This document shows positions 1-64,000 of a stretch of 64,000 bases of DNA, piece after piece. The position numbers were made by a program, and so were the translations under genes. How positions within the stretch are numbered: position 1 is the stretch's first letter; each line of letters opens with the position of its first letter. Under the pieces are notes generated by a model. That model was not told the origin of the DNA. It ran no database searches and saw nothing but the letters and a program-made list of their open reading frames with translations. The stretch is from Tetradesmus obliquus (Eukaryota > Chlorophyta > Chlorophyceae > Sphaeropleales > Scenedesmaceae). The stretch lies in NCBI GenBank assembly GCA_030272155.1, contig CP126205.1, forward strand, positions 3,708,501-3,772,500. Direction: 5' to 3'.

Positions 1-202
1 CACATCGGACAAACGGTACTGTCGTCAGGTTTGATACATAGGCAAGAGCAGCAGTACCCTCCTCACTCTGCACTGCGGCAACAACAGGCTCGCAACAGTG
101 GCCTGCTCAGCCCGCGGGCTGCCGCCCTGTGCCATGGTGTCACTCGTGCACTGCTAACAGATAATCATGTCGAACTGTTTCAGAATGTTATGCTGTAGGC
201 TG

Positions 203-420
203 CGCCCCGCCTGCAAGCATTTGTGGGTTCTGTGCCTGCTGCCCTGCAGGGCCCTGGGCCAGGGTCTGGGACAGCGTTATTCAAAAGCTGCCAACCATTT
301 AGCATCAAACATGCTGCTCAACAACATGCTCTCCACTGGTACCCACCTGCTAGCATCTGTGGGTTCTGTTGTTGTTGTTGCCCTGCAGGGCCCTGCGCCA
401 GGGTCTGGGACAGTGCTGAG
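203..420 (-). repeat. Duplicated 3' terminal exon segment
   Basis: Two copies of a segment encoding LSQTLAQGPAGQQ then QNPQMLAGG lie at about 355-415 and 203-275. They differ in the number of Gln codons and each ends in its own stop, TGA at 318 and TAA near 195. The second copy lies downstream of the gene's stop, so it is untranslated unless alternatively spliced. Confidence 0.6.
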
Positions 421-62000: not shown

Positions 62001-64000
62001 CCAGGCATGCAGCATGCCAACCGCATGCACAGATACTGCACGTCAGCCAGTGCTCTTTTCAAAGCTGCCCAATAAAAACCTGTTGTGGGTCATACCTTCT
62101 AAGACGGTGCCAGGACCCACATGTAACTATCCTCTCTCAAACAATCTGGACCCACCTTGAGCAGCATCACCAGCGACGGCAGGCTGTTGTGAAACACCAG
62201 CACCTGTTCAAAAGGGAAAGACGACAGCAGGTCGAACCAGAACCAGCCCTTGAGGTAGCGGCTGGCAATGCCGTGGCGGTCGCTGATGAGCCGGCCATCG
62301 TGCCCTGCAGGTGTAGAGAAGCCAGATGCAGCAAAAAAGGCAGCAGCAGGCGGCCATAATTCAAGGTCTTCAAGACGCCGTGCATGCTGCGCTTGCAGGG
62401 CTGCAGATGTAGCAGGCGGAAGCCTTCACGAAGCACATGAAAATTACTCATGTGCTTTGAGGTGCCATCACTTCAGGGCTGCAGGACTTGCAGCAAGGAC
62501 AGAGGGCTAGCAGCAAGCCGCAGGCATCCACTCCCTCTTTGGCATAACTTTCATTGTGACAGCAGTGACTACGGCAATCAGCAGGGCCATGTGTTGCAGC
62601 TGAGCATGTGTGACGCTTCACTCACCCAGCACAGCTGTGTGGAAGTTCATCCAGATGTCACACATGAAGATCAGGTTGATGGTCAGGTCCAGAATAGACA
62701 GAGGGTTGCCCAGGTCGCTCTGCAGGACAGCACGCAGCAGCAGCAGTTGTACGCAGTGCCGAGTCGCGGTTTTTCCAATCGCCCCTGCTCCTGGCTGCAT
62801 ACAGATTGATGTTCCCACGGTACAGAGCGGCATGGGCAAGAGCCTGATGCGCAGCAGCGCTGGCCGTGCTACTCACAAAGTCGATTTTGAAGGCCACAGC
62901 GTAGGGCAGCACTGTCGCCAGGTACGTGAGCAGCAGCAGCATGACGATGTTCCAGCCCAGCATGATGTTGCCGGTTGGCAGCAGCACATCCCAAAAGAAG
63001 GCCTGCACAGTGAATCGAAGACGGCGGCGGCTGACAGCGTCAGTTGCAAGCCACCTCAGGTCTTGCGTTATATTGTGGTGTTGCGCTGGGGTAGCGTCTA
63101 GTCAATTCTGCCTGCCAGTCTGCTGTTCAATGCACCACCTGAGCGCGTGTAGCAGTGATTGTTGGTTAGGGTGCCGCCACATGCAACAAAGTGTCATCTC
63201 TGAACACACCTTTGCCAGCAAGCCTGCCTGCCTTATGATGTCCTTTGGAGACCAGCCAGCCGTGCTGTCCTCTACTGTCTGCTTTGGCTTGGGACTGATG
63301 AGTGATTGGTTCACATCAGCGTGCCGGCTGCAGCAAAGCAGAGCACAATCAAGGCAAGCAAAGTGAAACAGAGTACATAGGCTGCTGCGTGAACGGATGT
63401 TTACTGCTGCTGATGCGTGTGACGCACGTGCAGCAGGCTTGCAGGATACTAGCAGGCGTGTTGTTGCAGTGGCGCACAGCTGTGCACACAGCAGCTGCAG
63501 AAGGTGCTGGCCCGGCAAGCAGAACGAGGCATGTACAGGATTATCCTCACAGTGCATGATGCAATAGACGCGCTACAACTCTCTTCTGACCGCTGCTGCA
63601 CCAAGTCTGCAAAGTACCAAGGCGCTGAGATACTCACTGTGGCGACAGCGGCTTCACATCATTGGTTGAAGACGCCATGGCAGCATCGTATGCAGCTGGT
63701 ATGCTCCATTCCTGTCCTTGCTGCTTTTCCTTCTGCTGCTGCTGCTGCTGCTGCTGCTGCTGCTGTTGCTGCTTCTGTTGGCAAGTTGTGGGGCTGGCTG
63801 CAGCTGCCCATGCTGCCTCCTCTTCCCCACAGCCGCAAGCAATGCTGGCAGCTCCTGCGCCACTCGTGCAAGCTGCAGGTGATTCTGCTGCATGTTCTAG
63901 ACTAGCGCTGCTTACTGATGCAGCTGTTTCTGCTGCTGTTGCTGCTGCTGGCTGTGTTTCTGGGCTGTCCTGCAAGCCGGCACCTCCGCTGCAGCTGCTG
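56049..64000 (-). CDS. Voltage-gated K+ channel with cyclic-nucleotide-binding domain (5' end outside window)
   Basis: Six-helix channel of the CNG/EAG/plant-shaker superfamily. Exons from the right edge (approximate): Gln/Ala-rich N-terminus 63638-64000; linker 63210-63327; S1 62877-63002; S2 62626-62721 (LDLTINLIFMCDIWMNFHTA); S3 about 62157-62310 (YLKGWFWFDLLSS); S4-S5 about 61465-61725 with voltage-sensor arginines (RVARIVRMIKLLRLLRIARL); pore about 61253-61307 with filter TIAAVGYGE; S6 about 61015-61072 and 60736-60795; C-linker about 60260-60600; cNBD 59480-59597, 59160-59232, 58100-58172 (GEYFGELSCLLGEARN), 57805-57900. A Ser/Ala-rich insert of about 165 residues (58373-58868) splits the cNBD between strands. 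A long Gln/Ser-rich tail (56477-57525) ends in exon 56049-56200. K+ selectivity is inferred from GYG. Seven acceptor copies precede the first cNBD exon. Confidence 0.85.
56300..56470 (-). repeat. Downstream copies of channel exon end (LFSGTPGR plus donor)
   Basis: The end of exon 56477-57525 (SGTPG before GTGAGG) recurs near 56440-56462 and 56300-56330 with donors. The last exon (YLFPYGLDRNG) joins in phase from the first. Confidence 0.65.
57680..57730 (-). repeat. Downstream copy of cNBD exon end (QQW.EL.EEFEAMG)
   Basis: It repeats the 3' part of exon 57805-57900 with substitutions. Confidence 0.7.
58170..58206 (+). repeat. (CAG)n microsatellite, sense (CTG)n before cNBD exon
   Basis: About 12 units directly upstream (sense) of exon 58100-58172. 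Confidence 0.9.
59581..60220 (-). repeat. Seven copies of acceptor plus first cNBD exon 5' part
   Basis: Anchors near 59581 (functional), 59690, 59788, 59900, 60002, 60102 and a diverged one near 60178. Each copy has a sense (CTG)n tract, CCAG acceptor and about 18 codons (VVLHLYAEALEKVPFFRG). Only the copy nearest the rest of the exon continues to PQFITSVVTFLKLEYYAP. The others lack a donor and run into a stop or the next tract. Confidence 0.92.
61314..61360 (+). repeat. (CAG)n microsatellite before pore exon
   Basis: About 15 units; sense (CTG)n immediately upstream of the predicted pore exon acceptor. Confidence 0.9.
63734..63770 (+). repeat. (CTG)n microsatellite coding for poly-Gln in the channel N-terminus
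   Basis: On the sense strand it is (CAG)n, translated as Gln within the N-terminal exon. Confidence 0.85.

Follow-up and report, generated by a model that had tools for sequence, protein, structure and literature searches.

The window, a 64-kb stretch of DNA (C15:3708501-3772500) from a genome of 104.66 Mb in 17 contigs, contains genes with spliceosomal introns, which marks the genome as eukaryotic. Pfam searches supported a channel (PF00520 match, the PF00027 match lying below its cut-off), a ZIP gene (PF02535), a bL27 gene (PF01016), a GT8 gene and a cyclophilin. The gene names given in the original prediction were therefore backed for the channel, ZIP, bL27 and GT8, whereas the lipocalin match fell below the cut-off (E 0.084) and the search gave no supporting family for the genes called BAR and GT, names that are thus putative. 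Exon models came from a gene finder whose training set was 2,735 kinesin codons, and many exons of the window are its predictions; a second finder, self-trained, was abandoned because its models shifted to CAG repeats. The exons with copies in the window, together with two plain tandem repeats, are as follows.

59592-59479, minus strand: channel cNBD exon with five upstream copies (acceptor plus first 56-58 bp; unit ~107 bp), span 59535..60186
57910-57803, minus strand: predicted channel exon with one downstream copy (3' part plus donor), span 57681..57846
From 54141, plus strand: lipocalin-like exon with two upstream copies (acceptor plus 87-92 bp), span 53805..54232
52523-52625, plus strand: predicted exon with two downstream pieces, span 52553..53518
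53008-53086 and 53479-53598, plus strand: predicted exons with one upstream copy each, both without the acceptor AG, span 52553..53518
50719-50794, plus strand: predicted exon with a whole-exon upstream copy, an exception to the rule of partial copies, span 50452..50815
49866-49964, plus strand: bL27 exon with a single upstream copy of 50 bp, 48 of them identical, span 49760..49916
45941-45873, 44892-44779 and 44170-44087, minus strand: predicted ZIP exons with an array at each, span 44148..45962
43481-43215, minus strand: ZIP last exon with two copies upstream (85 and 21 bp) and two downstream (184 and 88 bp), span 42813..43862
39521-39586, plus strand: end and donor of a putative GT exon, with a 95.5% identical downstream copy at 39698-39763, span 39521..39763
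29526-29376, minus strand: predicted exon with one downstream copy (3' part plus donor), span 29144..29463
26963-26879, minus strand: exon flanked by four copies upstream and one downstream, span 26688..27601
23273-23137 and 22343-22255, minus strand: predicted exons with one and two downstream copies, respectively, span 21926..23221
20501-20374, minus strand: predicted exon with one upstream and five downstream copies, span 19637..20643
31663..31904, no strand assigned: tandem repeat of two adjoining copies (unit 120 bp), no link to an exon seen
14425..14683, no strand assigned: tandem repeat of two adjoining copies (unit 129 bp), no link to an exon seen

Direct reading of the sequence bore out the cases named in the original prediction at the channel cNBD exon, bL27 49866, lipocalin-like 54141, the ZIP last exon, GT 39521/39698 and exon 26963-26879, the last with copies of both kinds, as had been claimed. 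One of the five channel copies has lost its AG, and two of the three downstream copies of exons 22343-22255 and 23273-23137 have lost the donor GT. The intron parts of the bL27 exon and its copy are not significantly alike. At the GT pair, the 111-bp spacer resembles neither flank and the whole stretch matches only itself in the genome. The array at ZIP exon 45941-45873 includes three whole-exon copies, while the copy at 44170-44087 comprises 23 bp of exon only, with none at the stricter cut-off of the codon-position counts. The repeat at 14425..14683 is the plain form of the duplication process.

Local duplications were scored by BLAST of each stretch against itself, as direct repeats with a shift of at most 1 kb, with one dinucleotide shuffle of the window and of each sampled stretch as control. 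The window holds 43 arrays, whose spans make up 29% of its length, against no repeat pair in its shuffle. Twenty-four ten-kb stretches elsewhere (240 kb), set beforehand at round coordinates over the 17 contigs, yielded 84 arrays against none in their shuffles; among all the stretches retrieved, arrays occur on 16 of the 17 contigs. A 25th preset stretch (L006, C2:500001-510000) consisted entirely of N and was left out. This corresponds to a genome average of 3.5 arrays per 10 kb (bootstrap 2.1-5.0), or ~0.35 per kb as compared with 0.67 per kb in the window, and extrapolates very roughly to 22,000-53,000 arrays genome-wide. The proposed existence of partial exon copies is upheld, and so is their high density as a genome average, density having been assessed in this genome alone. 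Their spread is patchy (index of dispersion 4.0), and the arrays, although they occur genome-wide, are not a mark of every gene: 5 of the 24 preset and 12 of 14 kinesin stretches had none. One of the two kinesin stretches with arrays (L029) and three of the four CCT stretches, all four of which carry arrays, were picked in the knowledge that profile hits overlapped. By-eye, exon-by-exon checks of proteasome (28 matches) and actin (17 matches) hits revealed no overlapping partial run, although short copies could escape such a check. Patchiness is illustrated within the window by positions 60187-64000, which are devoid of local duplication arrays despite several predicted channel exons.

The duplicated unit is short, with a median shift of 127 bp (5-95% range 95-277 bp; 127 arrays) and most values at 100-150 bp, and copy identity ranges broadly from ~64 to 100%. 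A tandem array at 40956-41604 (272-bp unit, 2.4 copies, 99% matches) appears much younger than most. CAG/CTG runs, very common in this GC-rich genome, are unsupported as a cause (0.85 runs per kb inside arrays and 0.75 outside); the window also contains a perfect (TAT)38 run at 19224-19337. On a larger scale, two stretches of ~2 kb (4119-6058 and 8081-10071) are 68% alike and probably represent a duplicated pair of leucine-rich-repeat-like genes on the minus strand, the name being an impression.

Around 30 exons from the window, kinesin and CCT genes, several of them gene-finder predictions, we classed 75 copies as 37 upstream 5' parts, 30 downstream 3' parts, four whole exons and four interior pieces. 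The polarity previously described as strict, with acceptor and 5' part upstream and 3' part and donor downstream, was followed by all 67 one-junction fragments, with none of wrong polarity. Yet it is forced by geometry, since a segment that spans one acceptor and ends inside the exon can leave acceptor plus 5' part upstream only, and donors mirror this. Polarity is therefore a logical consequence of duplicating over one splice junction, and we rejected it as separate evidence. Plain examples of the pattern also lie outside the window. Protein searches revealed, at a CCT exon on C16, three upstream copies (residues 1-33, 2-23 and 1-26) and three downstream copies (residues 25-54, 25-54 and 29-54); this exon has no match above 62% identity outside its own locus in the genome. 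A kinesin exon in L029 (3303-4233 in gene orientation; C2:7430300-7435000, minus strand) has six upstream copies with a smallest shift of 126 bp (42 codons), and the gene finder ran a 908-bp frame straight across them.

Some copies have lost their splice dinucleotides, namely 5 of 37 upstream copies, which reach the exon 5' edge without an acceptor AG, and 3 of 27 downstream copies. These figures are hand-corrected from an automatic tally (25 of 37 and 24 of 29 kept) for six kinesin copies that do carry the AG but whose junction had been placed 2 bp off, for one copy so close to the end of its locus that it could not be scored, and for two ZIP copies that end in a stop rather than a donor. Scores at the truncated ends did not exceed random expectation for either donors at 3' ends (p 1.0) or acceptors at 5' ends (p 0.475). 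Without splice sites at their truncated ends, the copies are rejected as genuine small exons, and their present use as exons is unlikely. Stop codons within copies number three.

What is surprising at these loci is not polarity but the pattern of silent differences between copy and exon, combined with decoupled introns. Among two-copy arrays, just 8 of 71 have their copies head to tail, as do many multi-copy arrays. In two-copy arrays the exon part is usually alike and the intron parts are unlike. Similarity often runs from an exon edge through 3-9 bp of splice consensus before it ends, although about half of the upstream copies are alike further into the intron. Spacers of 25-200 bp resembled a flank in 6 of 49 spaced pairs, in 3 of 23 at ≥90% identity and in 2 of 9 at ≥95%, over short stretches that afford limited power. 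One contiguous pair is 100% identical (L011), and most pairs differ with a silent bias. At L020, two copies of an exon-like end with donor (4527-4590 and 4704-4766) are 97% identical and differ by one base in length, so that one would be out of frame.

In 69 copies of 30 exons, differences from the exon at codon positions 1/2/3 numbered 89/45/246, and differing codons comprised 231 silent and 99 replacement. Predicted exons under 60 bp (three, in L046) were excluded beforehand, and three further exons examined were free of copies. An initial set of 12 exons, picked by eye for visible copies, gave 42/17/134, and the 18 gene-model loci alone gave 47/28/112. Position 3 exceeded position 2 at 26 of the 30 loci, with three ties and one reverse. 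The resulting position 3 to position 2 ratio of 5.5 (bootstrap over loci 3.8-8.6) compares with ~1.7 expected of neutral copies, or perhaps 2.2 should third positions, being GC-rich, have a higher mutation rate; the two figures are our own estimates. Independently of gene models, mismatches between repeat pairs were 3-base periodic both in the window (z 4.0, 34 pairs) and in stretches from elsewhere (z 3.9, 67 pairs). Copies with alignable introns (31 copies, 18 loci) diverged by 18.2% in the intron and by 5.9, 2.0 and 13.7% at positions 1, 2 and 3, and those with unlike introns (38 copies, 24 loci) by 5.5, 3.5 and 18.2%. In the alignable class, with sites treated as independent, neutral decay fitted 24 log units worse than either a model of constrained copies (omega ~0.32) or an allelic one, which fitted equally well.

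Changes fixed between an exon and all its copies were silent over replacement at 22:1, whereas changes private to one copy stood at 44:37 (Fisher p 0.00015). Leaving out the richest copy of each array, the singletons were 22:15 (p 0.002) and were spread nearly evenly over codon positions (9/9/16). With fixed changes silent and private changes mixed, copy and exon differ as two working alleles would. This contrast suggests a first period in which both sequences were functional, hence on different chromosomes, followed by release of the copies, and it sets the allelic reading apart from one of constrained copies.

We therefore tentatively prefer, at somewhat less than an even chance, the reading in which the copy stems from one functional allele and the working exon from another, the two having been joined by recombination. 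According to this proposal, segments of ~100-150 bp would be duplicated locally and frequently throughout the genome, the unit often crossing one splice junction because exons measure ~140-180 bp and introns ~235 bp, and survivors would retain one intact exon, leaving the observed polarity. Highly diverged haplotypes would recombine after or during duplication, at a fitted neutral divergence of ~13%, setting the exon of one allele beside a fragment of another, so that the fragments would form an archive of alleles. Against it, 7 of the 9 spaced pairs at ≥95% identity have spacers unlike either flank, which is hard to reconcile with allelic divergence of a simple kind, unless the introns of the haplotypes are structurally different as well, and the equal fit of the constrained-copy model gives it no advantage. 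In addition, copy 209 of L043 (CCT), whose intron flank is identical to the exon flank at 54 of 54 aligned bases while its exon part carries nine third-position changes, is a mosaic that requires local conversion. The coincident break points predicted in two-sided exons were not significant (9 exons, p 0.14). Exons split by a single event, with copies on both sides cut at the same point, were suggestive in several cases and failed the same test; the CCT exon on C16 is neat in this respect (upstream ends 23-33, downstream starts 25-29), its extra copies lying outside the 9-exon test.

Next in rank, although we consider it unlikely, comes selection on copies that are not spliced whole, either because gene conversion between exon and copy makes damage costly or through possible use in transcripts. 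The highly identical pairs with exon parts alike and introns unlike, the omega model and the conversion-like mosaic of L043 are consistent with it, and the silent share of singletons (44/81, against 25-29% under neutrality) favours some constraint on copies. The lack of splice sites at truncated ends, the lost dinucleotides, the stop codons, the length difference in the L020 pair and, in particular, the far more silent character of fixed changes than of singletons argue against it. The model originally put forward, that is, plain tandem duplication of short junction-spanning segments on one chromosome with one intact exon kept and neutral decay of the copies, is less probable still. Its short unit and perfect polarity stood; contiguous arrays exist (TRF; the 8 of 71 above), the breadth of identities suggests continuing birth, and singletons are near even over codon positions once the richest copies are removed. 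Contiguous duplication with neutral decay nevertheless disagrees with the present sequences, because spacers rarely match a flank (3 of the 23 pairs at ≥90% identity, a comparison whose power is limited by short spacers) and because the differences are far too synonymous. Array turnover on the same chromosome would be no rescue, we argue, as one lineage at a time holds the working position.

A process targeted to junctions, such as breaks or template switching at splice sites, seems quite improbable, in spite of an excess of exon-linked arrays. The lengths of 10 exons and 23 introns of kinesin genes, taken with the observed sizes of the unit, predict that of the units spanning a single junction or lying wholly within an intron, 54% would be recognised as junction-crossing, whereas 32 of 34 arrays in gene spans were exon-linked (p 3e-7), the two unlinked ones falling where there is no verified exon. 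But exon parts remain alignable for longer, which could partly explain the excess: the p value rises from 3e-7 to 6e-4 and 0.046 as exon parts are assumed to be 1-, 2- and 4-fold as detectable, and we therefore do not claim junction targeting. Besides, 12 of the 34 arrays come from the four CCT stretches, three of them chosen for overlapping hits (20 of 22 remain linked without these stretches), and an intron-only pair in L040, seen only at a looser cut-off, lies outside the count. Similarity that often stops 3-9 bp beyond the junction, also compatible with targeting, is what shared splice consensus would give. Assembly artefact is the least credible account, given arrays in nearly all contigs sampled and copies whose differences from the exon mostly amount to several percent and follow a coding pattern, where mis-assembly should yield near-identical copies.

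We would give an even chance to the broader statement that these introns are either an allele archive of a hyperdiverse or hybrid gene pool or else carry copies under amino-acid-level selection. Whether allelic or constrained, the copies would represent a way for exons to evolve of which no account appeared among the titles and abstract openings listed in searches of open-access papers. Should copies and exons be different alleles, past diversity and recombination could be estimated from one haploid genome, which would also show how introns lengthen and how intronic fragments and false splice sites accumulate. Constrained copies would instead imply perhaps tens of thousands (by extrapolation) of non-coding exon fragments under amino-acid-level selection, probably caused by gene conversion feeding fragments into the working exon, and would allow one to test directly if non-functional DNA comes under coding selection by way of conversion. 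In practice, gene predictors and protein-to-genome aligners applied to this lineage will go astray at such copies.

Several known systems invite comparison. In tandem exon duplication and mutually exclusive exons, exon copies lie side by side within a gene, whereas whole exons with both splice sites account for only 4 of 75 copies here. Small tandem duplications from break repair are reportedly the subject of work by Vaughn and Bennetzen. Introner elements form many dispersed, near-identical intron copies; in contrast, two spacer-bearing units searched genome-wide each matched only themselves, leaving introner-like spread unsupported for these two. In Chlamydomonas and Volvox, introns are repeat-rich, with tandem repeats enriched toward intron-exon junctions (PMC3887541); that study covers units of 1-50 bp, and the parts of it considered here do not mention exon-derived copies. 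As described in PMC8355091, error-prone repair of staggered breaks makes local duplications of tens of bp, as in PMDI of rice or by CST-Pol alpha-primase fill-in. The arrays resemble these staggered-break products in being local and short, with a median unit of 127 bp, and depart from them in that most two-copy arrays are non-contiguous and the differences look allelic. Finally, in the potato RdRp case of intron gain by tandem duplication, as given in PMC4974935, an intron-exon structure was copied beside its source and an 83-bp intronic duplication was noted. The present arrays likewise consist of a duplicated intron-exon segment that adjoins its source, but no new donor or acceptor arises at the truncated ends, and the copies remain intronic.
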